From NCBI GenBank assembly GCA_009773005.1, contig WOUT01000011.1, forward strand, positions 1 through 62,118: a stretch of DNA of 62,118 nucleotides, in the 5' to 3' direction. Source of the stretch: Chloroflexota bacterium (lineage in GTDB: Bacteria; Chloroflexota; Anaerolineae; Anaerolineales; Anaerolineaceae). Within the stretch, counting starts at the first letter, position 1. The number at the start of each line of letters is the position of its first letter. Of the stretch, positions 4,152 to 58,604 are shown piece by piece. The position numbers and the translations under genes were made by a program. Below the pieces are notes generated by a model. That model ran no database searches. It was not told the DNA's origin and worked only from the letters and a program-made list of their open reading frames with translations.

Positions 4152-5180
4152 ATGAAACGTTGGCAATTTTGGTTGGGGTTATTTATCAGCGCTGTTTTTC
4201 TATATTTTGCTCTAAAAGGTCTAAATTTTGACGATTTTTTGAAATCGGTAAAATCCGCGAACTACTGGTGGATCTTTCCGGGGATTGCTGTTTATTTTAT
4301 CGGGGTGTGGGTGCGCGCCTGGCGCTGGCACTACCTGCTTAAACCGATTAAAAATATCCCCACGCGAGTCATGTTCCCGATCACCTGCATCGGTTATATG
4401 GGAAACAATATCTATCCGGCACGGGCTGGAGAGGTACTGCGGGCAATTGTGTTGAAACGCAAGGAAAACGTTCCGATCTCCGCTTCGCTGGCAACTATCA
4501 TCGTTGAGCGTATTTTTGATGGGGTGGTCATGTTGGCTTTTGTGTTCGTCAACCTGCCTGAACTCGCCAATTTGGCTTCGTTCGATTCCGGTTTTATTGG
4601 CAACATACAGGATCTGGCGATCATTGGCACAGGGATCTTCCTTGGGGCGTTGGTCATCTTTTTATTGGCAGCCATGTTCCCGATTTTTACAGCCAAGGTA
4701 AGCAAGTGGTTTATAAACCGTTTGTTGCCCAAACGAATCCGCGAAAAAACTTCTTCAATTGCACTAAAATTCCTGGATGGACTGGCTTCACTGCGTTCGC
4801 CGGTCAATGTACTGATGGTTTTTTTAACCTCTGTGCTCATCTGGTTGCTCGAAACCGTGAAATATTGGTTCGTCATGCATGCTTTCACCTTCACAGTGAG
4901 TTTCTTCGCATTAATGCTCTTGAATGGTATCGCCAATTTAGCGACCACCATCCCTTCTGCACCGGGCTATATCGGCACCTGGGAGGCGGTGACAAAAGCA
5001 GTGTTGGTGGCATATAACGTTCCAGGAGCAGAAGCATTAGGGTATGCTGTGGTGCTGCATGTGGCGCTCTGGCTGCCGATCACCTTGCTGGGCGCGTATT
5101 TCATGACACGCGAGGGCATCAAGTGGAACGATACGTTGCGCAAAGAAACGGATCAAACACAGACACAAGTCCAGCCATAA
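4152..5180 (+). CDS. flippase-like membrane protein (UPF0104 / LPG-synthase TM domain)
   Basis: A 342-residue polytopic protein with about eight transmembrane helices, matching the family that includes the membrane domain of lysylphosphatidylglycerol synthase and AglD-like proteins. Diagnostic stretches are the N-terminal RAWRWHYLLKPI near 58-70, the NNIYPARAGEVLRA turn near 82-95, and TTIPSAPGYIGTWEA near 270-285. Members are thought to move lipid-linked intermediates across the membrane. The soluble aminoacyl-transfer domain is absent. The gene lies 36 bases upstream of the FAD oxidoreductase, so a shared transcript and a role in lipid or isoprenoid glycoside metabolism are plausible. Confidence 0.8.
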   Translation: MKRWQFWLGLFISAVFLYFALKGLNFDDFLKSVKSANYWWIFPGIAVYFIGVWVRAWRWHYLLKPIKNIPTRVMFPITCIGYMGNNIYPARAGEVLRAIVLKRKENVPISASLATIIVERIFDGVVMLAFVFVNLPELANLASFDSGFIGNIQDLAIIGTGIFLGALVIFLLAAMFPIFTAKVSKWFINRLLPKRIREKTSSIALKFLDGLASLRSPVNVLMVFLTSVLIWLLETVKYWFVMHAFTFTVSFFALMLLNGIANLATTIPSAPGYIGTWEAVTKAVLVAYNVPGAEALGYAVVLHVALWLPITLLGAYFMTREGIKWNDTLRKETDQTQTQVQP

Positions 5181-45441: not shown

Positions 45442-46767
45442 ATGAACAAAAAATGGACCCTATGCCCACTCCTTCTGGTGATATTAGTAATGATCTTAAT
45501 GCCATTCAATCAAAAGACGGTCATAGCCCAGTCTGTTAATCCGGTGGTGGTCACCATCACTCTCGAAGGCCCTTTGACGCCAGTTTGGAGCACCCATCTG
45601 CAGCGCGGCATCCACCAGGCAGTTGATTTGAAAGCAGGTTTATTAGTAATTGAATTAAATACTCCCGGGGGTTCAATCGATTTGATGAACTCCCTCGTTC
45701 AGCAGATCCTCGCCAGCCCGGTGCCGGTAGTCGTATTTGTCTCTCCGCGCGGTGCGATGGCGGCTTCGGCCGGAACCATGGTTGTACTGGCCGGACAGCT
45801 CGCCGCGATGACCCCAGGATCTGCGATCGGCGCTGCCAGCCCGGTAGGGTCGCAGGGGGAAAATATTGAAACAACTCTGGAAACGAAGACAAAAGAAATT
45901 CTCAAAGCGAGTGTGCGTTCGATGGCTCAGAGACGCGGACTTGCGGCCGTGCAATTGGCGGAAGAAACGATCGATTCCGCGAAGGCCGCCAGCGCGCAAG
46001 AAGCATTGGACGCCGGGTTGGTAGATATCATTGCCAGAGACTTGCCGGACTTACTAGACCAAATTGATGGACTGACGATTGCAGTTAATGGTTCTGAAGT
46101 GACATTAAACATCGCGAACACCCGCATCGTGCCGGTGCAAGCCACACTGGTGGAAAACATCCTGGGGCTGTTGACCAACCCAAACATTGTCTTTCTGCTC
46201 CTCTCCATCGGGGTTCAGGCGCTCTTAATCGAACTCTCCAGTCCTGGTGGCTGGGTTGCCGGTTTCTTTGGGGTGGTGCTTCTTTCTCTTGCAACCTACG
46301 GTTTGGGGATCCTGCCAGTCAATTGGTTTGGCATTATTTTCCTGGTCATTGCCTTTGTTTTGTTTATTTTGGATATTAAAGCGCCAACGCATGGAGCGTT
46401 GACGATTGCTGGTACTGGTTCATTCATCGCAGGCGCGCTGATTTTATTCAACTCCGCGCAGGTGCCTGCTTTTAGCAATGTGTCGGTTCCGCTGGTGATT
46501 GGGGTGGGTGTGTTCCTTGGATTAACTTTTTTTGCAGTAGTGATGATCGCGGTGAGAGCGATGAAAACGCCGGTCGTGACCGGGCAAGAGTCAATGGCAG
46601 GCAAGACTGGACACACGGTTACAGCTCTAAATCCAACCGGAATTGTGCAGGTGGCAGGGGAACACTGGAGTGCGAAGCTGGCAGAAGGAGAAAAGCCGAT
46701 CAAGGCAGGGGAGCGGGTTGTGATAATTGAGACAACCGGTTTAAAGGTGATCGTGCGAAAAACATAG
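45442..46767 (+). CDS. NfeD-family membrane serine protease (ClpP class)
   Basis: A 441-residue protein with a signal peptide (about 1-29), a ClpP-class protease domain (about 35-225), four to five membrane helices and a C-terminal NfeD OB-fold (about 375-441). The catalytic serine is S109 in AMAASAGTMV, and the general-base lysine is K149 or K151 about 40 residues on, the spacing of the archaeal 1510-N protease. Such proteases cut stomatin-type partners, but no stomatin gene is adjacent. A TATAAT with extended TG lies at 45418-45423, and GAGGT precedes the ATG. Confidence 0.88.
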   Translation: MNKKWTLCPLLLVILVMILMPFNQKTVIAQSVNPVVVTITLEGPLTPVWSTHLQRGIHQAVDLKAGLLVIELNTPGGSIDLMNSLVQQILASPVPVVVFVSPRGAMAASAGTMVVLAGQLAAMTPGSAIGAASPVGSQGENIETTLETKTKEILKASVRSMAQRRGLAAVQLAEETIDSAKAASAQEALDAGLVDIIARDLPDLLDQIDGLTIAVNGSEVTLNIANTRIVPVQATLVENILGLLTNPNIVFLLLSIGVQALLIELSSPGGWVAGFFGVVLLSLATYGLGILPVNWFGIIFLVIAFVLFILDIKAPTHGALTIAGTGSFIAGALILFNSAQVPAFSNVSVPLVIGVGVFLGLTFFAVVMIAVRAMKTPVVTGQESMAGKTGHTVTALNPTGIVQVAGEHWSAKLAEGEKPIKAGERVVIIETTGLKVIVRKT

Positions 46768-46772
46768 AGTGA

Positions 46773-46804
46773 AAACGGGCTGCCGAATGAAAAACAGCCC
46801 GTTT
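46773..46804. terminator. bidirectional terminator between convergent genes
   Basis: AAACGGGCTG (46773-46782) and CAGCCCGTTT (46795-46804) form a perfect 10-bp stem with a 12-base loop, between the NfeD gene and the minus-strand gene ending at 46839. Confidence 0.8.
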
Positions 46805-46838
46805 AATTAGATAATCAAAATGAATGGGAATTGATCGC

Positions 46839-47351
46839 TTAAAGTTTGCCAAAAGCAACTCCTTTATACACCCATCCGCAGGCAAGCACGGCTTCCTGGA
46901 TGGGTTTCTTGATCTCGTTGCTATTGAATTTGTATTTGTAGACTTGTCCCGGAGCAAGGGTCTCGGTGAAAGCGTACCCTGTGCCAAATTCGACGGACGT
47001 GGACTGCCCTTTGAAAGAACTAACCTCGACCGCCAGCCTTGGGATGCCTGCCGACCAGGACACGGAGTACTCTCGATCCATAGCCCTCACCTCATGAGTG
47101 GCCTCATCCAACTTCAAATAGATGCGGAAGACTTTCTTAAGACTTGCCTTGGCAAATATCTCGTACCATTGCGCATCAACGATCTTCCACTCTGCGATCA
47201 GATCCACTTTTTCAGCTGCGCCGTCAATGATCTGATAGGGAGCGCTCAGGCGGTTTAAAGCGAAGATGCGTTCCCGTACACCCAGTGCGGGTAATGCGGG
47301 TGTGCCTGCGGGTGGTCGTTTTGTTCCTGTTAAAAAATCAAAACCAGCCAT
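46839..47351 (-). CDS. conserved hypothetical soluble protein
   Basis: A 170-residue protein, with GGAGGT before its ATG. The first 20 residues are Pro/Gly-rich and probably flexible. The rest predicts a beta-rich domain (VDLIAEWKIVDAQWYEIFAKA, RIYLKLDEATHEVRAMDREYSVSW). No signal peptide or membrane helix is present and no family is recognised. It is convergent with NfeD and separated from the MFS gene by about 170 bases. Confidence 0.6.
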   Translation of the reverse strand: MAGFDFLTGTKRPPAGTPALPALGVRERIFALNRLSAPYQIIDGAAEKVDLIAEWKIVDAQWYEIFAKASLKKVFRIYLKLDEATHEVRAMDREYSVSWSAGIPRLAVEVSSFKGQSTSVEFGTGYAFTETLAPGQVYKYKFNSNEIKKPIQEAVLACGWVYKGVAFGKL

Positions 47352-47524
47352 TGTTTACCTCCATGAATAAAGGATCCTACATACCAACATCATAGCATAA
47401 TTGAACATAGGCTGTTACCCATTGATAAGCACCGCCCTCCACAAAACGGTGGAGTTGGTTTTTCCGGCTTCTGCATCGCCAACCGAGCAGACAACCAAAG
47501 GGATAATGACAAAACCCCTTGTTT

Positions 47525-48724
47525 TTATGGATTTTTTTTCATTTCGCTTTTTTTGGAAAGAAAACGAACAATCACGAAAACTGCCAGCAACACCGCCAAA
47601 GTACTCGTAATGAACCAAACATAAGCAGAAGGACTGCTTTTTTCAAGCAGAACCCCTGCGATCCACGGCAGGGCTAATCCGCCTACGCTGCCCATTGCAA
47701 CAACCGCACCAACGGCCTTACCCTGGTCGGAAGGGAAAGAGGCCGTTGCAATTGCAACAGTTGTAGGATAGATTGTGCCAAAACTAAAACCAATCATAAT
47801 CAATGCAATGATTGCCGGAGAAGTTGTGCCAGTAAAAAGAGCGAACGCAATTCCTCCGAGCAATGAACCTAAAATCGCGATACCCAGCAGTTGGATTACG
47901 GTGAGTTTGCGGCTGGCGATTGCTCCGACCAGCCTGCCAAGCGTGAGAAAACCCCAGTAAGCCGAGGTGACCAACGCGCCATTTTGAACAGGCATTTGAG
48001 TGGAAGTTTTCATATACGTGGTTGCCCAACTCCCCAAGCCGTATTCTATACCAACATACAACAACAGCATAAATCCGATCGTCCATAAAAGTGGCGAGCC
48101 GTAAACGCTGCTTCTTTTTTTCTCAACTGAAACAGATAATTGTGAGGACGCCGCAGTATTTTCAGGTTGGCTTACGCGAATCATTAATGACAACCCTGCC
48201 AATAGGACAAATAAACCCGCAGCTGCTAAATGGACGATCAAACCCGAACCACTCATGCTGATAGCAAGGCTTACCAGCGCAGGTCCAAAGAACGCACCCA
48301 AGCCAAAGAAGAAATGCAATAGATTTAATACCGGGGTGTTGTTCTTCGGGAACGCATTTGCCACGACCAGATTTGCGCCCAAATCTACTCCGCCTTGTCC
48401 CAACCCTGCGAGTAAAACCAGGATAAACATCCATGACAGCGAATGCGCATTGGTAAAACCAATAATACCCATAGCGAGGATGCATAAAGAAACGATTAAT
48501 ACTGATTTTTGTCCAAAGTGATCTGTTAGTGGACCAGCTATGATCTGGGCGATGAGTGAACCGAGAAACAGGAAAGTGAGCACGCCGCCAATCGCTGCCA
48601 AAGAGGATGTGGTTTGTGTTGATAATTCCCCGAGAACTGGACCGATGGCAGCGTTGAACATGCCAAAAATCAGGAATATCATGCAAGTGAGGACAAGAAT
48701 GATTTTAGGAGAAGTGGGTTTCAC
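47525..48724 (-). CDS. MFS permease, GTG start
   Basis: A 399-residue transporter with twelve transmembrane helices. The frame is open far upstream, but GTG at 48724 with AAGGA 7 bases before it begins directly at MKPTSPKIILVLTCMIF, the first helix, so it is the likely start. The MFS loop GPLTDHFGQKSVLI between helices 2 and 3 is present, and the fold resembles FucP/YfkF-like sugar or drug permeases. The substrate is not predictable. It lies 32 bases downstream of the TauE-like gene, which suggests one transcript. Confidence 0.85.
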   Translation of the reverse strand: MKPTSPKIILVLTCMIFLIFGMFNAAIGPVLGELSTQTTSSLAAIGGVLTFLFLGSLIAQIIAGPLTDHFGQKSVLIVSLCILAMGIIGFTNAHSLSWMFILVLLAGLGQGGVDLGANLVVANAFPKNNTPVLNLLHFFFGLGAFFGPALVSLAISMSGSGLIVHLAAAGLFVLLAGLSLMIRVSQPENTAASSQLSVSVEKKRSSVYGSPLLWTIGFMLLLYVGIEYGLGSWATTYMKTSTQMPVQNGALVTSAYWGFLTLGRLVGAIASRKLTVIQLLGIAILGSLLGGIAFALFTGTTSPAIIALIMIGFSFGTIYPTTVAIATASFPSDQGKAVGAVVAMGSVGGLALPWIAGVLLEKSSPSAYVWFITSTLAVLLAVFVIVRFLSKKSEMKKNP

Positions 48725-48756
48725 GAAAATTTCCTTTGCAAAGATTAAGGTTTGGA

Positions 48757-49512
48757 TTACTTGAAGAAATAAATTGCAGCGACAATGATCCCGATTCCGA
48801 CCACCACCCAACGCAATCCGGCAGGGTTGATCTTGCCAGCCAGGCGCCCGCCGACAGATCCGCCTGCCAGAGCGCATACTGCCATCACTCCGGCAACACT
48901 CCACAACACCTGCCCTGAAAAAAGAAATATGACGGCTGCGGCAACATTGGTTGCAAAGGCGACGGCTTGCTTAAGCGCGTTCAAGCGGGTGAGTGAATCG
49001 TGATAAAAAAGTCCAAGCGCTGCGAGGATGATGACGCTCAAGCCGGCGCCAAAATACCCCCCGTAGATCGCAGCCAGCCCGACTGGCAATACTGCGCCGA
49101 TATCCATTGGTTTTTTGTTTTCAGGATTCTTGTTTTTAAGCCATTTATTCAGCGGTTCGCCGATTGCGAGCAGCAGGGAAGCCAGAAGGATCAACCATGG
49201 AATGAAACCTTTGAACAACCGTTCACCGGAAGAAAGCAAGAGCAGCGCGCCGGTCAATCCACCGATCACACCTGCTGGCAGTAACAGCCACATGCGTTTC
49301 TTCTGGTCAAGCAGATCCGTGCGTTGGGCAAGGGTTGCGCCGAAGTAACCCGGGCAAAGCGCCACCGTGTTGGTAACATTCGCAACCACCGCGGGAATCC
49401 CCAGCGCGGTTAGCAGAGGGAAGGTGATTAACATGCCACCGCCAGCCAGCGCGTTCACTGCGCCAGCTGCGAAGGCGCCCAGACCAATCAGAAGTAACTG
49501 GATAATACTCAT
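48757..49512 (-). CDS. TauE/SafE-family anion exporter
   Basis: A 251-residue membrane protein with eight hydrophobic helices in two TauE repeats. AAGAVNALAGGGMLITFPLL (16-35) and the related YGGYFGAGLSVIILAAL in the second half are the family signatures. Members export sulfite or sulfoacetate, or import small organosulfur anions. It probably shares a transcript with the MFS permease, but the cargo is unknown. Confidence 0.87.
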   Translation of the reverse strand: MSIIQLLLIGLGAFAAGAVNALAGGGMLITFPLLTALGIPAVVANVTNTVALCPGYFGATLAQRTDLLDQKKRMWLLLPAGVIGGLTGALLLLSSGERLFKGFIPWLILLASLLLAIGEPLNKWLKNKNPENKKPMDIGAVLPVGLAAIYGGYFGAGLSVIILAALGLFYHDSLTRLNALKQAVAFATNVAAAVIFLFSGQVLWSVAGVMAVCALAGGSVGGRLAGKINPAGLRWVVVGIGIIVAAIYFFK

Positions 49513-49577
49513 ATCGTCTTATTGTAAAACATAAATCATATTGCGGTTTTCATAACTTGGGTCCAAGAGAAAGTTAA

Positions 49578-49620
49578 AACAAAAAAAACAAAATAAGCCG
49601 TGAATTCAAGTTATCACGGC
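49578..49620 (-). terminator. terminator of the aldo/keto reductase gene
   Basis: GCCGTGA (49597-49603) and TCACGGC (49614-49620) form a 7-bp stem with a 10-base loop. On the minus strand a long T-rich run follows. The gene stop is 25 bases upstream. Confidence 0.75.
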
Positions 49621-49644
49621 GCATTCGAGAGATTGCCGATTAAT

Positions 49645-50628
49645 TTACCCGTTCAAATTCCGTTTCCAGTTTCCTAAAATTTCTTCTATGCGCGTGATTA
49701 CTTCAGGGGTCAGTTTCGCAACTGCGTCAATGGCTTTCACATTTTCTCGAACCTGTTCAACCCGGCTGGCGCCGGTGATGGCAGTGCTCACGTTCGGATT
49801 CTTGAGACACCAGGCAATTGCCATATGCGGCAAAGAAATTCCAACTTCTTTGGCGAGTACTCCCAAAAGTTTCACGCGGTCAAGCGCTTCCTGATCTGTA
49901 AATTTATCTCGCAGCCATTCATAATCTTTCAGAGCGCCGCGTGAATCAGCAGGAATTCCGTTGTTGTATTTTCCTGTCAGTAATCCTGCTCCAAGCGGAC
50001 TAAAAATGGTCGTGCCGTATCCATAATCATCGAATAGGCGCTCGTATTCTTTTTCCATGCGGTCGCGCCAAAACATATTGTACTGGGGTTGTTCTACGAC
50101 AGGCTTGTGCAGATTGTGTTTATCAGCAAACTCGATGGCTGAGACAATTTCCGCAGCAGACCATTCAGAAGTCCCCCAATAAAGGGCTTTACCCCATTCG
50201 ATGATATTATGCATGGCCCAGACAGTTTCTTCGATGGGGGTGGTTTTATCTGCCCGGTGACAGTAGATGAGGTCAACATAATCCAGGTCGAATCTTTTTA
50301 GCGAGCCATTGATGCCTTCGATCAACCGCTTGCGATTAAGCGTATTCTGTTCATTGATGCCTTCATCGATGCCGAAGTAGATCTTGGTAGAGACGAGGTA
50401 GCTTCCACGCCGCCAATTGAGCTTCTTCAATGCTGCTCCCATCACTTCCTCAGATTTACCACCGGCATAAACCTCGGCGTTGTCGAAGAAATTGACGCCC
50501 GCATCGTACGCCGCAGCCATGCCTTCCACGGCTGCGTCAACCCCGACCTGGGTGTGAAACGTAACCCATGAACCTAATGAGATTGCGCTTACTTGCAAAC
50601 CAGTTTTTCCTAAATAACGATATTCCAT
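49645..50628 (-). CDS. aldo/keto reductase
   Basis: A 327-residue NADPH-dependent TIM-barrel oxidoreductase of the YghZ/Kv-beta-like branch. The catalytic tetrad is present: Asp and Tyr in [11 protein letters not shown], Lys in LVSTKIYFG and His in [10 protein letters not shown]. The C-terminal NADPH-binding stretch is [15 protein letters not shown]. It probably reduces a reactive aldehyde or ketone. It is monocistronic with its own terminator. Confidence 0.9.
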
Positions 50629-50832
50629 GTCGCTGACTCCTTATGAATTCGAATAACTATCATTCATTCTAACAGAGGATAGTGTTGAAGTATGTCGTCT
50701 GGTTCTATGGTGTTTTATCTTCTGTTTAAAACTAGAACCCGGGAATCTACTTTTAGCAAGTAAACGACGGTCCTTTTTCCTGAATCGCAGAAAATTTACT
50801 AACCACAAAAATGGTTGACTATCTTCCAGCTC

Positions 50833-51456
50833 TTACGCGAACTGTTTTAGAATTTTTCGAATCCGCACAGCCTGCGAAGGTATCATGTCTGGCAAACGCT
50901 GCCGCAGGACACTCAAAAATTCTTCTTTGTTGGTTTCGTTCACGCACACCAAAATGCTTTCGGCATGCTGTGGCACTTCCTTGGTCCGACATTTTCTTAG
51001 ATGCTCACGTAAATATGGGAATAGCTCTTTTTGGAATTCAACGTTAAAAGCAGCGACGGCAGCCAGAACTTTTATGCCGTTATCGATTGTGATCACGGAT
51101 CCCTGGTCCATCGCCTTGATGATCTTGGTTCGCTTTTCAAATAATTTCGGCGCGTTTTGACTGGCGATGGTTGTGAGGGCAATCATGGCTCCCCATACCA
51201 GACGGTTTTGTTTACTGATCAGAAGTTTAAGAAAATCTTCAACATACGGAGCGATCAATTCGGGATCAATATAGCCGATTTCGTAAACCACCTTCAAGCA
51301 ATCGCTGCGAATATCCGTATTTTTATCCCATAGATGTTCAGCGATCTCCATAATACCCTCAGTGTTTTTTGTTGAAGCCAATTCGTGCGCCAACTCCTGA
51401 TTAGGAACTTCATCACGTCTTTCCTGATAAAAAGCAATTCTGGATAGAACTGACAT
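50833..51456 (-). CDS. HEAT-repeat protein
   Basis: A 207-residue all-helical protein with about five HEAT-like repeats, for example MEIAEHLWDKNTDIRSDCLK, VVYEIGYIDPELIAPYVEDF and LTTIASQNAPKLFEKR. Two ATGs begin the frame, and the second (51456) is 5 bases from GGAGG and is preferred. HEAT repeats act as protein-binding scaffolds. No enzymatic motif is present. It lies directly downstream of the decayed racemase. Confidence 0.72.
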   Translation of the reverse strand: MSVLSRIAFYQERRDEVPNQELAHELASTKNTEGIMEIAEHLWDKNTDIRSDCLKVVYEIGYIDPELIAPYVEDFLKLLISKQNRLVWGAMIALTTIASQNAPKLFEKRTKIIKAMDQGSVITIDNGIKVLAAVAAFNVEFQKELFPYLREHLRKCRTKEVPQHAESILVCVNETNKEEFLSVLRQRLPDMIPSQAVRIRKILKQFA

Positions 51457-51481
51457 CATAACCTCCTGATATTAAAAAGGA

Positions 51482-51720
51482 TCATTCCTGAAGCGCATAT
51501 TCCACCGCGGCCACCGTGTGGATGCGGGCGGTATCAAACAAGGGGAGGCTGTAGTCGCTTTTATACAAACAGTCCGATCTCGGTTTAGCCGAAGATAATC
51601 CTCTCTACTCCTTGCTGTATGTACCCCTCCAAGTTTTTCCTGAATGGTTTCATTGATTAGCTGGTAATAATCGGCTGAGGATTTCCAACTCAAGCCACTG
51701 ATCATTCCAATCGTTCTCAT
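51482..51720 (-). pseudogene. aspartate/glutamate racemase gene with its middle deleted
   Basis: The first about 36 codons from 51720 read MRTIGMISGLSWKSSADYY, the typical racemase N-terminus. After a change of frame the last codons read DYSLPLFDTARIHTVAAVEY, the typical C-terminus, ending at a TGA at 51482. About 150 of the usual 230 residues are missing, including the catalytic cysteines. The two ends retain family sequence, so this looks like one internal deletion rather than general decay. Confidence 0.8.
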
Positions 51721-52129
51721 GGTCTCTCCAGAGACAGTTTTATTGATGTTAATATTATATCCTCAGGCGAGACCATCAACTGCCGATACGACTTGCGGCA
51801 TATCCGTGAAGGTGTGTGATGGAGCGTGTAGTAAAAAAACCTCCAGGTTGGCAATACCCCATGAGACTGCCCCAAACGGAAAATTAACTTTTAGGGCAGT
51901 TTCAATATCTCCGACCTCGACTCCAATGGCCACCTTTACGGTTTTTAAATCCGTTATTTAGCAAAAGCCTTTTTAAGGCTGCCGATTTTCCGTCAATGGA
52001 GACACAGGTTTCGAATAAACATACACCGTTTCCCGATAGAAAGTTCATTATTTCTACACAACTTCCTGTTATCCTTTTTATAAACTCAATGCCCTGGTTC
52101 TGAAATTTATCTTAGAGGTAGAAGTAAAT
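51721..52129. other. 409-base gap with a possible coding remnant
   Basis: No intact gene. On the minus strand at roughly 51768-51935 an open stretch reads VAIGVEVGDIETALKVNFP and on to a TGA, with a protein-like composition but no proper start and stops just upstream. It may be a relic of a gene neighbouring the deleted racemase. The right part (52000-52129) is AT-rich promoter-like DNA for the DUF4405 gene. Confidence 0.3.
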
Positions 52130-53023
52130 ATGGCTGTAAATTCACAAAAATCTAACTGGTTTATAGACGTGCTCATGTTTGCAGGGTTTCTGGCCGCTTT
52201 TTTCTTAAGCCTGACAGGGCTGGTTATTCATCAGTGGCTTGGCGTTGCGCTGTTACTGTTAATCGTTATCCATTTCATCAATCACTGGAACTGGGTGAAA
52301 TGTGTGGCTGAACGATTCTTCGGAAAAACCTCGAACCGCGCCCGGTTGTATGCTTTAATCGACGGAATTTTATTTTTTGGGGTGGTAATGATCATGGAAA
52401 CCGGACTGGTCATCTCCACTTGGTTCAACTTGGAGTTATCTAACTATTCTGCCTGGCGTGATTTGCATGTTTATGCATCCCTTGCAACTCTGTTAGTGAC
52501 TGTTTTGAAGATCGGTTTACATTGGCGTTGGGTAGCCGGAACTGCAGGAAAGATCTTTAATGCCCGCAAACCACAAGCTAAGCCGAGAGTCACAGTTCCG
52601 CAGGTTTTAAAACCTGTTCCACAAAGCGCATCAATAGACCGCAGGCAATTTCTGGTCACGATGGGTATTGTAGGGTTGGGTTCCCTGCTGGCGATCAATA
52701 ATGTTTTATCCAAAGAAACGATCGTTCAATCCGCATCGCTGCCGGAAGAAGAGAAACCTGCTGACAATAACGCAAAAAACCAGGAGCTTACTGTTGTTGA
52801 GACACAAGTTGCCGAAGTTCAGATTCAAGACAATGCAACTCAGCCTGCCGCTACTGACACCACTTACCCGCAATCCACACCTGCACCGGTGAACGTGGTT
52901 GCCGCTCCGGCAACCACACCTTGCACGGTGCGTTGCTCGAAACACTGCTCTTTTCCAGGGCGCTGCAATAGATACGTAGACAGCAATAACAACCGCCTAT
53001 GCGATCTCGGTGAGTGCATGTAA
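52130..53023 (+). CDS. DUF4405 membrane protein with internal twin-arginine segment and six-cysteine tail
   Basis: A 297-residue protein. Residues 11-135 form four membrane helices of the DUF4405 type with histidines at 34, 48, 52, 113 and 131 that could bind b-type heme. Residues 169-192 read as a Tat-like signal in mid-chain: D-R171-R172-Q-F-L, then a hydrophobic helix. A Thr/Pro/Gln-rich linker follows. The last 33 residues carry six cysteines (265, 269, 273, 279, 291, 296) and a DSNNNRLCD element like a calcium loop. The layout suggests an electron-transfer protein whose folded, cofactor-bearing tail is exported by Tat. The cofactor is inference. Confidence 0.7.
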   Translation: MAVNSQKSNWFIDVLMFAGFLAAFFLSLTGLVIHQWLGVALLLLIVIHFINHWNWVKCVAERFFGKTSNRARLYALIDGILFFGVVMIMETGLVISTWFNLELSNYSAWRDLHVYASLATLLVTVLKIGLHWRWVAGTAGKIFNARKPQAKPRVTVPQVLKPVPQSASIDRRQFLVTMGIVGLGSLLAINNVLSKETIVQSASLPEEEKPADNNAKNQELTVVETQVAEVQIQDNATQPAATDTTYPQSTPAPVNVVAAPATTPCTVRCSKHCSFPGRCNRYVDSNNNRLCDLGECM

Positions 53024-53049
53024 TTTATAATTTAACACCTCCTCCTGTG

Positions 53050-53089
53050 CAAATGAATCTTCGGGTTGAAAGGCCGGAAGATTCATTTG
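53050..53089 (+). terminator. terminator after the DUF4405 gene
   Basis: A perfect 13-bp stem, CAAATGAATCTTC (53050-53062) with GAAGATTCATTTG (53077-53089), and a 14-base loop. A T-rich stretch follows. Confidence 0.75.
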
Positions 53090-53168
53090 TTAACCTGCTT
53101 TTTGGGCATATGGGGAATATAATAAAGATTCATTATTCGAACAATCTCTTCTGAATTGAGGATATCCG

Positions 53169-55106
53169 ATGCATGGTCATGGTATGAGACGTCTCGCAAA
53201 CTCTCCAGACGAAATCCCTCACGTTTCGTGGGCGCTAATAAAGCGTGTCATGAGGTACGCGAAACCTTACAATCTAATGCTCGTTCTAATGCTAATACTT
53301 ATCCTGACAGGAACCGGTTTGTCTTTACTGACGCCGTTAATTGTGCGCGAGATGATCGACAATACCATTCCGACGCATGATTTAAGTCGATTAGTTTTGC
53401 TGGCTCTGTGTTTGTTTGTCATTCCAGGAGTCAATGGCGTGCTTAACGTGATCCAACGGCGGATGAGTGCGGATGTCGGCGAAGGGGTGATCTACGATCT
53501 GCGCATGGCGCTTTATTCCGGTTTGCAGCGCATGTCCCTGAGGTTTTTTACCAACACCAAAGTTGGTGAACTGATGAGCCGCTTGAATAATGATGTGGTG
53601 GGCGCCCAAAATGCCATAAGCCGTACACTTGTGGACCTGGTGACCAATTTTATCCAGGTTCTGGCAACGATTGGAGTCATGTTTTCACTGGAATGGCGGT
53701 TGACCTTGATCAGTGTGGCAGTTGTTCCGCTCTTCATCTTTGCGGTACGGAAATTGAGTAACCGCCTGCGTGATATCGTGCGCGGTCAGATGGAAGCAAA
53801 CGCGCATATGAATGCCATGATGCATGAAACATTAAACATCGGAGGCGCGTTGTTAGTGAAGCTCTTCGGACGTAGTCAAATCGAAGTAGATCGGTTTGGC
53901 AGCCGGGCAAAACAAGTAAAAAAACAGGGCGTCGAACGGGCTTTTGTCGGTTCGATCTTCATGGCGATCATCGGGTTGGTCAGCGCGGTAGGGACGGCAT
54001 TGGTCTATGGTTTTGGGGGTTATTTTGCCATCACAGGCGCTTTCACGGTTGGGTTGATCGTGGCGTTCGGTTCGTATCTGGGCAGTTTGTATGGCGCATT
54101 ATTTTCATTGGCGAATGCCCCGGTGGATTTTGCAGCTTCTGTGGTTAGTTTTGAGCGGGTATTTGAGGTCATCGACCTTCCACTCGATATAGAAGAAAAT
54201 GAGGAGCCAGTTTCTTTGAATGAGGTAAAAGGCGAAATTATATTTGATGACGTTACTTTTACCTATCAAACCGGTGATGAGCCCTTCTTGAGTGATGTGC
54301 ACCGCTACGGCAGCATGGAATCAATCACAACGGTGATGTCAGGTGAAGCCAATGGAGGAAGCGCAGAAGAAACTCACCATAGTCAGGCGCGCGGAAATGC
54401 CCTTGAGCACGTGAGTTTTAGTGTAGAACCCGGCAGACTTGTGGCGCTGGTGGGGCCCAGCGGCGCGGGTAAAACCACGTTAACTTATTTAATACCGCGC
54501 CTCTATGACCCCACATCAGGCAGCATTCGTATTGACGGGCACGACTTGCGCGATGTGACGCTTGAATCGCTTTCCGCCCAAATCGGTATGGTGACCCAAG
54601 AAAACTATCTATTTCATGACACGATCCGCACGAACCTGCTTTATTCAAAACTGGACGCGACGCAAAGTGATCTTGAAGAGGCTTGTAAAGCCGCGAATAT
54701 TCATAATTTCATCGCTGACCTGCCAGATGGGTACGATACGGTCGTAGGCGAACGCGGATATCGTTTGAGCGGCGGAGAGAAACAGCGCATTGCGCTGGCA
54801 AGAGTGATCCTGAAGGATCCGCGCATCCTCGTTTTGGATGAGGCAACCAGCAGTTTGGATAGTGAATCGGAAGCGTTAATCCAGGAAGCGCTCAAGCGGG
54901 TGATGGCAAAACGTACCAGCATCGTGATTGCCCACCGTCTCAGCACCATCCTGGCCGCGGATCTGATCCTGGTGATTGACCGGGGGCAGGTGGTGGAACG
55001 TGGCACTCACAAGGAGCTGCTGGTGTTAAAAGGGTTGTATGCCCAGTTGTACAAAACACAGTTTAGCAAGAGGGAAGCGGGGAGTGAGGGCTCTGAGTTA
55101 TCTTAA
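53169..55106 (+). CDS. ABC exporter (fused permease and ATPase)
   Basis: A 645-residue half-transporter, with six membrane helices (about 35-315) and a nucleotide-binding domain. Walker A is GPSGAGKT (429-436), the signature LSGGEKQRIALARV from 533, Walker B ILVLDEAT (553-560) and the H loop IAHRLST. It would dimerise and export a lipid, peptide or drug. An insert of about 35 polar residues with several His (about 372-408, near DVHRYGSMESITTVM) splits the A-loop region from strand two (ALEHVSF). GAGG lies about 8 bases before the ATG. The stop is 8 bases before the left target copy of the insertion sequence. Confidence 0.93.
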   Translation: MHGHGMRRLANSPDEIPHVSWALIKRVMRYAKPYNLMLVLMLILILTGTGLSLLTPLIVREMIDNTIPTHDLSRLVLLALCLFVIPGVNGVLNVIQRRMSADVGEGVIYDLRMALYSGLQRMSLRFFTNTKVGELMSRLNNDVVGAQNAISRTLVDLVTNFIQVLATIGVMFSLEWRLTLISVAVVPLFIFAVRKLSNRLRDIVRGQMEANAHMNAMMHETLNIGGALLVKLFGRSQIEVDRFGSRAKQVKKQGVERAFVGSIFMAIIGLVSAVGTALVYGFGGYFAITGAFTVGLIVAFGSYLGSLYGALFSLANAPVDFAASVVSFERVFEVIDLPLDIEENEEPVSLNEVKGEIIFDDVTFTYQTGDEPFLSDVHRYGSMESITTVMSGEANGGSAEETHHSQARGNALEHVSFSVEPGRLVALVGPSGAGKTTLTYLIPRLYDPTSGSIRIDGHDLRDVTLESLSAQIGMVTQENYLFHDTIRTNLLYSKLDATQSDLEEACKAANIHNFIADLPDGYDTVVGERGYRLSGGEKQRIALARVILKDPRILVLDEATSSLDSESEALIQEALKRVMAKRTSIVIAHRLSTILAADLILVIDRGQVVERGTHKELLVLKGLYAQLYKTQFSKREAGSEGSELS

Positions 55107-55114
55107 CCGCCACT

Positions 55115-55122
55115 TTAATTAA
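55115..55122. repeat. left target-site duplication TTAATTAA
   Basis: Identical to 56801-56808. Without the insertion sequence the site would read CTTTAATTAAAG, a 12-bp palindrome, downstream of the ABC exporter. Confidence 0.75.
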
Positions 55123-56800
55123 GGGGCTGGCTAAAAAGTCAGCCTCAAATGTTAGAAAAAAAGTCGAAACAAAGAAAAAAGACAAAAATAAGCAGCGATC
55201 AAGCGACCGCTGCTTTTGCTATGTTGTGAGAAATGCAAAGAATTCCCCATTCTGTGGTGACTTTATCTATTCCTCGAAGCAGGAAACGCCTGAATCCCCA
55301 ATTTTGCTTCAGACGACCAAATACAGCTTCCACCTCTACAGGCCGCCTGGATCGCATGACCAGTCCTTGGGGAGAAAGTAGAATATCTCGAGCTTGTAGC
55401 TTGAGTCTTTCCCATTCCACACCGATTTGAATCTGCCGATTATTTTTTGCGCGGGTACATTCTGGTTTTACAGGGCATTGTGAACAATCCTCACACTCAT
55501 AAATACGACGCTCTGAAACGAATCCATTCTCACTTTTATATGGCTTTGTAAATACGTACCGTAATCGTTTCTTTTGTGGACATTCATACTCATCTACTTC
55601 AGAGTAGTATGGAAAATTATCCGCACGGTAAGGATGTTTCTTTTTGTAATTCCGTTTCTGCTCGTAATGAAAGCGGCTATCTTTGACATAAGCTGTGATT
55701 TGTTTTTCTTCCATGAAACTATAATTTTCTTCACTCCCATAGCCAGCATCCGCAACCAAGTTTTCAGGATAATCTCCGAGCCAAGTTTTGAAGTTTTCCA
55801 GATGTCCTTTCAAACAACTGGTGTCTCCTGCCCTACGATGCAAACTGAAGCTCAAGATGAATTGCTTCTGTGTTCCCATTTGTATGTTATAGCCTGGCTT
55901 GAGCTGCCCATTACGCATGTGATCTTCTTTCATCCTCATGAAAGTTGCATCTGTATCCGTCTTGCAGAAGTTGTTGCGTCCCTCATAAATTTCTTCATAT
56001 CGCTCGTATTTTTCCATACGAGGAATAAAATCACTCTCCAGCTTTTTCTTGGCTTTTTTGAGTTCTTTATCTTCCGGTTTTTGTTTCAAGAGTTCATTGA
56101 TCTTTCGGGCTGCTTCTTTCAATTTCTCAGCATCAATATCTTTGCCTTCCCCGACTTCCTCCAAGTCAGCCTCTCCATATTTCTCGTCTTCGGCTGCTTC
56201 GATTTCATCGATTTCTTCCAGTAATTGCTTCACTTTCTCTTGCAATTTTTCTTTGTTCTTCTCTGTGCTTTTTCGCCATACGAATTTGTATTTATTCGCA
56301 TTCGCTTCAATCTTCGTCCCATCCACGAAGTAATTGTCCAAGTCTACATACCCCTGTTCCATCAACTGCTCTACAACCCCATAAAACACTTCATTGATCA
56401 CTGCTTTCATGACTTTCCCTCTGAAGCGGTTGATCGTGCGATGATCTGGCCGGTTCATTCCACTCAGCCACATGTAATTTACATTCTCTCGGAGTTCTTT
56501 TGCGATCCTTCGCGATGAAAACACCCGCTGGGTGTAGGCATATACAATCACCTTCAATAACATCTTTGGATCGTACGCGCTTGTTCCTCCCCCTTTATAT
56601 TGCCTTTCTAATACCCTTTTGTCGATTTCTTCGATCATTTTGTTTACCACCCGTACCAGGTGCTTTTCTGGAATCAACTCTTCCAGACTCGGCGGCAATA
56701 GCATTGCCTGTGCTTGTTCATAGGGTTTGAATATTTGTCTTTTCATACCCCTATTATATTAAATTTTTAGAGGCTGCCCCTATACTTTTGGGACAGCCTC
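55123..56800. mobile_element. complete IS1182-family insertion sequence (1678 bp)
   Basis: The left end begins GGGGCTGGCTAAAAAGT and the right end, read inward, GAGGCTGTCCCAAAAGT, 13 of 17 positions identical, so they form imperfect terminal inverted repeats. Each end also folds on itself (right end: GAGGCTG with CAGCCTC), which shields the transposase gene from outside transcription. Both sides carry TTAATTAA. One intact transposase fills the interior. The absence of stops and the clean target copies point to a recent insertion. Confidence 0.88.
55199..56746 (-). CDS. IS1182-family DDE transposase
   Basis: A 515-residue transposase, full length for the family. An N-terminal DUF772 helical domain (LKVIVYAYTQRVFSSRRIA near 65-83; DHRTINRFR) leads to the RNase H-like core with acidic residues in YFVDGTKIEANAN, NLVADAGYGSEE and the C-terminal VEAVFGRLKQNWGFRRF. 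A coiled coil (about 175-245) interrupts the core, and a CxxCxxCPVKPEC cluster lies near 433-445. The ATG sits about 55 bases inside the right end. No frameshift is needed to read it. Confidence 0.93.
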   Translation of the reverse strand: MKRQIFKPYEQAQAMLLPPSLEELIPEKHLVRVVNKMIEEIDKRVLERQYKGGGTSAYDPKMLLKVIVYAYTQRVFSSRRIAKELRENVNYMWLSGMNRPDHRTINRFRGKVMKAVINEVFYGVVEQLMEQGYVDLDNYFVDGTKIEANANKYKFVWRKSTEKNKEKLQEKVKQLLEEIDEIEAAEDEKYGEADLEEVGEGKDIDAEKLKEAARKINELLKQKPEDKELKKAKKKLESDFIPRMEKYERYEEIYEGRNNFCKTDTDATFMRMKEDHMRNGQLKPGYNIQMGTQKQFILSFSLHRRAGDTSCLKGHLENFKTWLGDYPENLVADAGYGSEENYSFMEEKQITAYVKDSRFHYEQKRNYKKKHPYRADNFPYYSEVDEYECPQKKRLRYVFTKPYKSENGFVSERRIYECEDCSQCPVKPECTRAKNNRQIQIGVEWERLKLQARDILLSPQGLVMRSRRPVEVEAVFGRLKQNWGFRRFLLRGIDKVTTEWGILCISHNIAKAAVA

Positions 56801-56808
56801 TTAATTAA
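56801..56808. repeat. right target-site duplication TTAATTAA
   Basis: Same 8 bases as at 55115-55122, directly after the right inverted repeat. Confidence 0.75.
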
Positions 56809-56819
56809 AGGATTAAAAC

Positions 56820-57722
56820 CTATGGAACGAAGTTCAGGGATTTTGACATACAAGTACCGGCGCCATTTTGCTCCGAACAAAGAGTGACTGTAACCGAAAT
56901 ACTGTGCCCTGCAGGATTATAGTTTAGATGACCCGGATTTGCTGTCACTACAAAGGAGTCTTCACCCGGAGTGAGATCTTCCTGTGTTATCCCCACAACA
57001 CACCCGGCGTATTCCTTGAAAGTATTGCTGGTATGAAGAAACGCAACGCCAGTTGTGGAATCATTACCACTGACTCTAATCGATTGCCAGATTGTGCTGC
57101 CTGTGTTTTTTACATAAATCTTAAATGCGAAATCAGGACCACAACCCGTAAGGCTATTGTAAGTTACAGAAAAATTCGCTGTCGGAGTTGGTGTATAGGT
57201 CGCGGTGGGTGTGGGCTGTGGGGTAAAAACAGGCAAACTTACCTGATTGCCGGTTAGGGTGGCAAATTGTCCCCAGAGCCAACAGAATGAACCGGGGCTG
57301 TTTGGGTTTTTGACATAGTAAGTATCATTTTCAGGATTACGCCCCACAACTTCAACGGTTTGCCCTGCCTTGACCGTAGTCACCGCTTGAAAAACGGCTA
57401 AGGGACCTTTTCGGCAGTTGGTATCCTTCGAAAGAGTCAAGAAGACTCCTTCCGGTGTGGGGGAGAGAGTGATTGTAGGTGTCAAGGTAGGCGTGAAGGT
57501 TACCAGTGGTTCAACTGCAACCGTATTTGTAGGAATGATTTGTGCGCCTGCGTTCAGGGTAGCCGCGACAATGGTCATGGCGCTTTGGGCGATCGCAACT
57601 TCAGCAGCTACCGTTGCCTGAAGATCTGGCGCCGTAACTTTTCCTAGTGGAATATTGCAGGCTGCCAAGGAGAGTATCATAATGAGTCCAGGCAACCATT
57701 TCAAGATCCGATTTGTAATCAT
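56820..57722 (-). CDS. lipoprotein with SH3-like domain and C-terminal beta domain
   Basis: A 300-residue exported lipoprotein. The signal peptide ends in the lipobox LAAC with C22 as acylation site. A Thr/Pro linker (about 70-92) follows, then an SH3-like domain (about 97-160: NCRKGPLAVFQAVTTV, CWLWGQFATL), a second Thr/Pro linker and a C-terminal Ig-like domain (about 185-300) with paired cysteines. SH3-like domains of this kind bind cell-wall peptides. GGAGGT precedes the ATG. The insertion sequence lies just beyond its stop. Confidence 0.8.
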   Translation of the reverse strand: MITNRILKWLPGLIMILSLAACNIPLGKVTAPDLQATVAAEVAIAQSAMTIVAATLNAGAQIIPTNTVAVEPLVTFTPTLTPTITLSPTPEGVFLTLSKDTNCRKGPLAVFQAVTTVKAGQTVEVVGRNPENDTYYVKNPNSPGSFCWLWGQFATLTGNQVSLPVFTPQPTPTATYTPTPTANFSVTYNSLTGCGPDFAFKIYVKNTGSTIWQSIRVSGNDSTTGVAFLHTSNTFKEYAGCVVGITQEDLTPGEDSFVVTANPGHLNYNPAGHSISVTVTLCSEQNGAGTCMSKSLNFVP

Positions 57723-57815
57723 AGAATCACCTCCTCTATGATTACAATGATAGTGAATTCTTAGTGGAAATTCAATGACCAGTTTGTTTTTTAGAAAGGC
57801 GAACGCATTAAGGTT

Positions 57816-58496
57816 TCAATAAGGGGGATGCTGTTTCAAACAGCCGAAGTCAATTTTTCTCATTCGCTCTGTTTTGGGGCTCACGAGGTACGTATTCCCG
57901 TTACGGTGCAGGATTGGGATCCTTTGTTTGATGGTGGCGTAATGCTCCCGAGTTTCTTCCGATAATTGCGCGTAGTTATCAAAATCCTCAGACCAGAATG
58001 AAAACAATTCGTCGTAGGTCTGAATGAACTCTTTTCGGTAGTCATCTGTGACTTGATCCAAATGGCTGAGAACCCAGCATTTTGACTCAAATTCCCAATC
58101 ACAAGCCAGCCCGATGAAACAGTGATCCGATGTAATATAGGGGAAAAACGGGAATTGGCGGCAGCTGGTGGTGCGGTTGTCTCGCTCGCATAAGGCAGGA
58201 CCTTTGCAGGTTAATAGATAAAGATGCTCTGGCGTTTGCTCCATCAATTCTGTTGGATCGCATGGGTCGTCCAGACATTCATCTCCTTGCCAGATATGCC
58301 AAAGTTTGGTGTTGATTTTGAGATAATCCCATTCAGGTTTATATGCCACCGGCACCGCATGGCAAATATCGCAGCAAAATGGTTTTCCATTCGGATTGTG
58401 GGGGGCGCACATCAACCCGCAATCCACCGGGGTGGTGGACGCGCTAAAGTTGTCGTAGAGGCTTCGGAAGTCGATAGGAGAGCCTGGTTTATTCAT
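57816..58496 (-). CDS. YkgJ-like cysteine-cluster protein
   Basis: A 226-residue soluble protein rich in cysteine: C26, C30, C41, C42, C45, C74, C79, C97, C103, C112, C126 and C131. The arrangement CGLMC...CCDIC followed by SCRQFPFFPYI is that of the YkgJ family, thought to bind zinc or an Fe-S cluster. No enzymatic function is established. The Shine-Dalgarno match is weak. It lies 93 bases upstream of the lipoprotein gene on the same strand. Confidence 0.7.
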   Translation of the reverse strand: MNKPGSPIDFRSLYDNFSASTTPVDCGLMCAPHNPNGKPFCCDICHAVPVAYKPEWDYLKINTKLWHIWQGDECLDDPCDPTELMEQTPEHLYLLTCKGPALCERDNRTTSCRQFPFFPYITSDHCFIGLACDWEFESKCWVLSHLDQVTDDYRKEFIQTYDELFSFWSEDFDNYAQLSEETREHYATIKQRIPILHRNGNTYLVSPKTERMRKIDFGCLKQHPPY

Positions 58497-58604
58497 AGAG
58501 TAATTTTATCCGAAGAAGGTTTTTATGTTTCACTTTTCTGTGATTTTGGCAAACTTTGAGGAATTAAATGCCAGTAGATTCTGCTATATTGTTGATCCCT
58601 GAAT

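Follow-up and report, generated by a model that had tools for sequence, protein, structure and literature searches.

Researchers have published dual Sec-Tat membrane proteins with five helices, among them Sco3746 and a polyferredoxin, and the sections of Tooke 2017 (PMC5449189) used here describe three polytopic Tat-dependent families beyond the actinobacterial Rieske proteins, two of which have five helices with a twin-arginine (RR) motif before helix 5. The same sections note a split/fused relation for MsrP/MsrQ and NapG/NapH. The first-pass annotation of our locus took the actinobacterial Rieske proteins to be the known case of a chain that uses Tat for its last segment; they are one such case, but, given the three further families, not the only one. 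For the membrane core, the published precedent is an Oscillospiraceae DUF4405 protein that binds heme b in vitro, according to the part of Huang 2024 (PMC11334425) on which we draw. In the DUF4405 and Sec/Tat dual-targeting literature that we searched, mostly at the level of listings, there was no description of the protein family reported below, of its C-terminal module of about 33 residues, of their combination or of the split/fused pairs; the online candidate list of Tooke 2017, which lay outside the scope of this search, may include the family.

The window is a stretch of 62,118 nucleotides (WOUT01000011.1, our contig C28) from an assembly of 2.86 Mb in 105 contigs. Positions 52130-53023 of its forward strand hold an open reading frame (ORF) of 297 amino acids (P0001), which its homologues lead us to read as a DUF4405-type membrane cytochrome, with a predicted heme, a mid-chain Tat motif and a cysteine-rich tail. 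With a rough probability of 0.6, it stands for a new dual Sec-Tat cytochrome-b family that would pass electrons to an exported mini-domain. An NCBIfam scan of P0001 returned no match. The opposite strand of 52130-53023, in the frame read, has many stops, and a chance or wrongly called frame is ruled out by the presence of the ORF in many genomes. Across 25 aligned rows that include the window protein, R171, R172, F174, H34, H48, H52, H113 and H131 are invariant (25/25); four tail cysteines (C269, C273, C279 and C291) are kept in all 24 readable rows and the other two (C265 and C296) in 22 of 24 each, the 25th row (L041) ending at a contig end before its tail can be read. The conservation of the motif and tail residues is far above chance, and the six-cysteine tail picked out in the first-pass annotation is thus both present and conserved.

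Judged by its sequences, this is a conserved family of the Anaerolineae and the wider Chloroflexota. Matches at E up to 1e-5 were obtained in 37 of 61 related genomes, and in 19 of these (the own genome included) the match was near full length and showed the whole architecture; the other matches that we read (L021, L023-L032) are short DUF4405 proteins without the RR helix or tail, or are broken. A tail-only profile (A1) matched 34 of 301 genomes of the order at one place each, the weakest matches being partial, and P0001 was its sole match in the own genome. When 30 of the tail-profile loci were fetched, each match in a long ORF proved to combine a DUF4405 part, a helix and the tail, L045 and L065 being the only ones without RR. 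The matches L067-L071 are short open stretches, of which L069 ends at a contig end; together with the four weakest tail-profile matches, these short tail stretches were kept out of the counts, as was a second partial match (G019:C119) from the search of the 61 related genomes. Three of them (L067, L068 and L071) are very short frames that lack all other parts of the gene, a sign that it may be decaying in some genomes of the order. In the phylum sample 13 of 400 genomes matched, including two six-Cys proteins from outside the class (L072, L073), and in the class sample the broader profile matched 53 of 396, both counts including weak, partial matches near the E cut-off; as the genome searches scored part of the candidates per genome, the counts are lower bounds. 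One scan of a genome collection with P0001 gave nine named relatives, eight under Chloroflexota names (Anaerolineaceae, Anaerolineae, Chloroflexi, Chloroflexota) and one uncultured bacterium. Plasmid collections yielded two matches only, at E 8 and 10, and no convincing relative, and no viral stretch was confirmed in viral collections. A second DUF4405-like locus in the own genome (L002, G000:C83:1779-2324) is a weak match whose aligned part contains several stops. Besides the six-Cys form, the module occurs in three other architectures, namely a four-helix DUF4405 core with RR helix and three-Cys module (L116, L117), a two-helix DUF4405 core with RR helix and module (seven proteins), and stand-alone proteins that begin with an RR signal and carry between one and three modules (six proteins); in a seventh stand-alone protein, L127, the module follows a non-RR helix.

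The four-helix core of P0001 (residues 6-130; 52145..52519, +) has a two-fold repeat and is defined by AlphaFold2 helices, conservation and a subthreshold match to Pfam DUF4405 (PF14358), which scored 23.8 bits against a gathering cut-off of 26.7; the same family is over the cut-off in the relatives L118 (33.9), L116 (33.2) and L086 (35.5). AlphaFold2 placed membrane helices at residues 6-29, 33-51, 69-98 and 103-130, the RR helix at 171-202, and short helices at 53-64 and 132-144. Most of the sequence of helices 1 to 4 has a pLDDT of about 80, against 49-67 round the RR helix and values below 50 over 207-280, and the whole-protein model is good in the core only. The structure and topology prediction proposed in the first-pass annotation, made from alignments of 9-10 rows, therefore delivered the four core helices and the RR helix, whereas a tail-only model was poor (pLDDT 58) and showed no flanking EF helices. 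A Foldseek search with the model found nothing at E up to 0.001. VIA-align matched formate dehydrogenase gamma (Z 10.1, rmsd 7.0, 144 aligned), cytochrome b6f chain A (Z 8.9, 3.5 A, 125 aligned) and Dcytb (Z 7.9, 5.0 A, 170 aligned), with unrelated helical bundles interspersed at similar Z, and we do not use these matches to assign a family.

The case for heme comes from the histidines. H34, H48, H52 and H113 inside the core and H131 just after it are kept in all 47 fused proteins compared (45/45 six-Cys and 2/2 three-Cys). Position 127 (52508..52510, +), where the sixth histidine of the heme-ligand pattern is replaced, is Lys in 47/47 fused four-helix proteins, and the unfused DUF4405 proteins with four helices that were compared from related genomes have His there in 11/11; this core comparison omitted L065, L066, L021, L036, L075, L090 and the stand-alone proteins. 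The six-Cys family falls on one side of a branch with support of 98/92, its bootstrap being not fully settled. His34 and His48 are 14 residues apart, as are His113 and Lys127, and we take this to be the spacing of a two-heme helix, as in formate dehydrogenase gamma. This spacing, with Lys127 in the place of a His, suggests that one heme site may carry His/Lys ligands or be lost. From the histidine pattern and the homology to the tested DUF4405 protein, we conclude that the core very probably binds heme b. The polytopic, heme-type four-helix core of DUF4405 type that the first reading had proposed is supported by the conserved histidines together with the AlphaFold2 helices.

Directly before the fifth helix lies the motif DRRQFL (R171-R172-Q-F174-L), and motif and helix together span residues 171-202 (52640..52735, +), as delimited by conservation, the AlphaFold2 model and the RR counts; both had been read off the letters at the first pass and are confirmed. 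RR stands directly in front of a hydrophobic helix in 59 of the 62 module proteins readable up to the export helix, namely 44/46 of the six-Cys class, 2/2 four-helix three-Cys proteins, 7/7 two-helix proteins and 6/6 stand-alone RR-signal proteins. In this count L124 was entered as RR because its sequence reads by eye as TRRKFL, and L021, L036, L066, L075 and L090 were omitted, since each is either a chance match or a sequence that ends or is interrupted ahead of the helix. The tail thus follows an RR helix nearly always, and homologues without RR are rare: L045 has RK, L065 has RC and a degenerate tail, and in L127 the module stands behind a helix without RR. In all of the 62 other than L127, a hydrophobic stretch comes after the motif.

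The net charges of the P0001 loops are +1, +4 and +8 on the putative inside and 0 and 0 on the outside, which obeys the positive-inside rule and places the tail very probably outside the cell, as the first reading had it. P0001 also has an even number of helices followed by a consensus RR and one last helix, in the model and by hydropathy (4 helices before RR). The hydropathy script missed or split helices, printing 3 or 5 for several four-helix homologues, and the counts of four, two or no helices before RR are readings of the sequences together with the P0001 model. Taken together, the RR motif, the even number of helices and the distribution of charges make it highly probable that the tail is exported by Tat.

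The alternative here is that RR is a mere positive-inside topology signal, with helix 5 inserted by Sec and the tail reaching the outside independently of Tat. The homologues with RK and RC and the module behind the non-RR helix of L127 would fit this, as would the 12.5 bits that the curated Tat-signal model TIGR01409 (cut-off 16.7) gave on the RR helix of P0001. The helix of L040 scored 13.3, and none of three stand-alone module proteins passed (L124 at 15.2; L086 and L123 not listed). Still, the same model is over its cut-off on three of the five mid-chain segments tested (L034, L036, L118), RR-x-F is constant in all 25 rows although its surroundings vary, and six of the seven stand-alone module proteins, L127 being the exception, have RR immediately ahead of the first hydrophobic segment. 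Positive charges beyond the last helix, which promote release from Sec in the families covered by the sections of Tooke 2017 (PMC5449189) used here, are mostly absent, and this too speaks for Sec alone: among 47 proteins, the 20 residues from position 195 hold no K/R in 25, one in 13 and two in 9. Weighing these points, we regard insertion by Sec alone as improbable.

The last helix itself is weakly hydrophobic, with an approximate insertion energy of +0.82 in P0001 and a median of +1.18 (range -0.17 to +2.6) in the 47 proteins, yet helix 2 is weaker still (median +1.45). The helix 5 estimates are close to the 0.23-1.76 given for Sco3746 homologues in the consulted part of Tooke 2017 (PMC5449189). 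TatC is encoded in the same genome as P0001, and it was found in 43 of the 45 module genomes given for the comparison, which are not all module genomes, against 134 of 151 genomes of the order; the two genomes without a TatC match, G012 and G872, have a listed completeness of 84 and 93. The contrast between the module genomes and the order is too small for this co-occurrence to be informative.

Between the fifth helix and the module runs a low-complexity linker (residues 203-264; 52736..52921, +) that is unconserved in the 25-row comparison and falls almost wholly into the stretch of lowest pLDDT, in agreement with the disorder ascribed to it at first. The module (residues 265-297; 52922..53020, +; profile A1, E 1.8e-19) is C-terminal and has the pattern C-x3-C-x3-C-x5-C-x11-C-x4-C, with C265, C269, C273, C279, C291 and C296 as Cys1 to Cys6. 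We compared 67 modules, left from 70 rows after removal of L036 (a chance wrong-frame pattern match), L065 (its degenerate tail having Ser for Cys5) and L066 (an ambiguous base in the module); they are related sequences and their counts are not independent events, and the divergent first module copy of L127 was left uncounted. Cys1 and Cys6 are both present in 46 and both absent in 21, and never does one occur alone, which suggests that they form a disulfide. Position 3, fixed by its distance to P-G with 3, 5 or 6 residues between it and Cys2, is Cys in 50 modules and Asp in 17 and nothing else, and this restriction suggests a metal ligand. Among modules of the Cys3 type the Cys1/Cys6 pair is present in 44 and absent in 6, against 2 and 15 for the Asp3 type; the pair is absent in L020, L021 and L022 and present in the Asp-type modules L121 and L134, suggesting that it changed several times. 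Cys5 is kept in 66 of 67 modules, with Tyr in L072, whose other cysteines remain, while Cys4 is demanded by the pattern used for collection and is present by construction. On these grounds, a four-ligand site of Cys2, Cys or Asp at position 3, Cys4 and Cys5, binding a metal or an Fe-S cluster, has about an even chance.

The calcium-like loop named in the first-pass annotation is real by sequence. D284-x-N-x-N288-x-x-C-D292-x-x-E295 (52979..53014, +), with C291 as loop position 8, has EF-hand spacing, and the positions of the 12-residue loop are conserved (D284 24/24, N/D286 23/24, N288 24/24, D292 24/24, E295 24/24). With the broader module profile A3, 38 of the 41 PDB sequences listed were EF-hand proteins matched at the loop, with weak E of 0.22-9.6; the narrower A1 listed two, one of them a calcium sensor. 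Pfam gave no EF-hand over its cut-off for P0001 or its tail, and weak sub-threshold EF-hand_1 matches in three related modules and in L086. A calcium loop in the module is therefore likely, as far as spacing and these matches can tell. No Pfam or NCBIfam model was over its cut-off on the module in the scans made, and the PDB matches of A1 and A3 up to E 10 contained no ferredoxin or rubredoxin, which a new site would not match in any case.

These observations bear on a second alternative, which keeps the topology and the Tat route and sees in the tail a knot of calcium and disulfides with a purely structural role, similar to an EF-hand or Excalibur domain and attached to the cell wall or to another protein, so that electrons, if any, end at the heme core. 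The conserved loop residues, the EF-hand proteins among the A3 matches, the sub-threshold EF-hand_1 matches and the strict, disulfide-like pairing of Cys1 with Cys6 all suit such a knot, and the all-Cys module could indeed consist of disulfides plus calcium instead. However, in 15 of the 67 modules Asp takes the place of Cys3 and just three of these cysteines remain, which leaves an odd conserved cysteine in the exported domain; the Pfam Excalibur family matched none of six modules searched; and disulfide and calcium domains are usually Sec cargo with no need of Tat. We consider the knot a possible but less than probable reading. The fullest form of the metal-site reading is likewise tentative: the tail would be a new miniature extracytoplasmic metal centre, with three cysteines plus Cys or Asp (perhaps holding Fe-S) on an EF-hand loop and an optional disulfide clamp, and would be a mobile Tat-exported module that has repeatedly joined two- and four-helix DUF4405 cytochromes to give single-chain quinol-to-outside conduits, with the His-to-Lys change in the fused four-helix forms.

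The relation between the heme part and the tail is seen most directly where they are separate genes. At L086, an RR-signal protein with three modules (ORF end 4771) is followed on the same strand by a stand-alone four-helix DUF4405 gene, whose ATG lies at 4769 by our own count; the ORF list starts this gene at a GTG further upstream and gives it as 4266-4883. At L124, an RR-signal module gene begins 14 bases after a stand-alone DUF4405 gene with two helices. Both loci parallel the MsrP/MsrQ and NapG/NapH splits known from dual Sec-Tat families. No DUF4405 gene stands beside the stand-alone module genes L122, L123, L125 and L127 within the stretches read, and the stand-alone gene of L126 is cut by a contig end. 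Since the tail is separate in a few relatives and is twice encoded beside the heme part, the two halves probably work together.

Blastp clustering of the ORFs at 30 loci revealed no conserved operon partner. The module/DUF4405 cluster alone is represented at all 30; after it come generic ABC ATPases (12 loci), two-component proteins (8) and DUF2680-like proteins (5). Three further clusters, two with 8 loci and one with 7, seem to consist of ORFs read out of frame or in antisense within the gene itself. Some relatives that differ in architecture have two-component proteins nearby (L116, L118, L129, L130); near L118 and L123 we named, by eye, MacAB-like ABC transporters and a DegP-like protease, and near L116 and L123 there are DUF2680-type secreted proteins over the Pfam cut-off. 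Such neighbours would suit an envelope-stress regulator or sensor whose heme core senses redox and whose tail senses outside calcium or another metal, without being an electron carrier. We find this unlikely, since no such context was seen in positions 46000-58500 of the window or in the flanks of L033-L041, and the neighbours vary between loci. The DUF2680-like cluster was seen near the module genes L116, L117, L123, L129 and L130, the one tested from L130 having no Pfam match, and a recurrent lipoprotein with no Pfam family over the cut-off lies near L118, L123 and L130. Around the P0001 gene itself, 51472-51720 is an 82-aa ORF that by eye resembles the start of an Asp/Glu racemase-like gene, and at the same place L033 and L034 have a racemase-like ORF of 243-255 aa and a HAD-type hydrolase. 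An ABC exporter gene (53169-55106) begins 145 bases downstream of the P0001 gene; similar genes also follow the homologue in L033, L034 and L035, whereas none was read there in L036 or L038-L041, and L037 has one on the other strand. Close by is a transposase-like ORF of 515 aa (55199-56746, minus strand; by eye), and 57816-58496 encodes a Cys-rich protein of 226 aa that is YkgJ-like by eye, with a similar ORF near the homologue in L035 (9885-10583).

Returning to the cytochrome that would feed an exported mini-domain, we propose the following course. Helices 1-4 would enter the membrane via Sec and form a DUF4405-type four-helix bundle with b heme, its heme being predicted. The chain would be released with RR inside, and the C-terminal module would fold and load its ligands in the cytoplasm before Tat carried it out as helix 5 inserts. 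Outside, the module would be a miniature fold with an EF-hand-like calcium loop, a Cys1-Cys6 disulfide and four ligands, Cys2-(Cys3 or Asp)-Cys4-Cys5, that would most likely hold a metal or an Fe-S cluster. On its flexible linker of about 60 residues, it would accept electrons that reach the heme core from the quinone pool and hand them to an outside acceptor, so that P0001 would work like a fused MsrQ-MsrP pair in which a small carrier domain replaces the MoCo enzyme. Electron exit as the function of the protein is, on the sequence evidence, the reading that we somewhat favour.

Anaerolineae are common in anaerobic digesters and sediments. Should the module hold a true metal site, it would rank as an exported electron carrier of very small size and would hint at the way in which these bacteria move electrons out. 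The family adds a conserved candidate with several architectures to the short list of proteins with a mid-chain change from Sec to Tat, and its putatively exported domain, at about 33 residues, is so small that what Tat demands of its cargo could be studied on it directly.

Among known systems, the Sco3746 (heme-MoCo) family, as described in the sections of Tooke 2017 used here, resembles ours in its five helices, predicted heme-b histidines, RR before helix 5 and outside C-terminal domain, and also in a mostly positive insertion estimate for helix 5 and in split homologues (MsrQ/MsrP there; L086 and L124 here). It exports a MoCo enzyme, whereas P0001 would export a module of about 33 residues from a core of DUF4405 type, and the positive charges after helix 5 are mostly missing here. 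The actinobacterial Rieske protein (Sco2149; PMC5449189) shares the even number of Sec helices, RR, a last helix and, should the tail of P0001 bind a cofactor, an exported cofactor domain, and differs in its Rieske Fe-S domain, its two Sec helices and, in those sections, the lack of a described heme core in the same chain. In MsrPQ (YedYZ; likewise from those sections of PMC5449189), a heme-b membrane protein feeds a Tat-exported partner from the respiratory chain, as we propose for P0001. MsrPQ differs in consisting of two proteins, with a MoCo methionine sulfoxide reductase. Its membrane core is of the ferric-reductase type. The loop of the module has the form D-x-[DN]-x-[DN]-G-x-C-D-x-x-E in common with EF-hand and Excalibur loops and is presumably Excalibur-like, but it differs in showing no flanking EF helices (in a low-confidence model), in its extra upstream cysteines and in having no Pfam match over the cut-off. 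The DUF4405 cytochromes, in the part of Huang 2024 (PMC11334425) used here, share the PF14358-type core, the conserved histidines and a proposed role in membrane electron transfer; they have six helices and often lie beside apbE, whereas P0001 has 4+1 helices, Lys for one His, and the RR helix with its tail, and the only ApbE match in its genome is on another contig. Both components of P0001 have precedents (Tooke 2017; Huang 2024), and the protein would be a variant of the known dual Sec-Tat and DUF4405 types.
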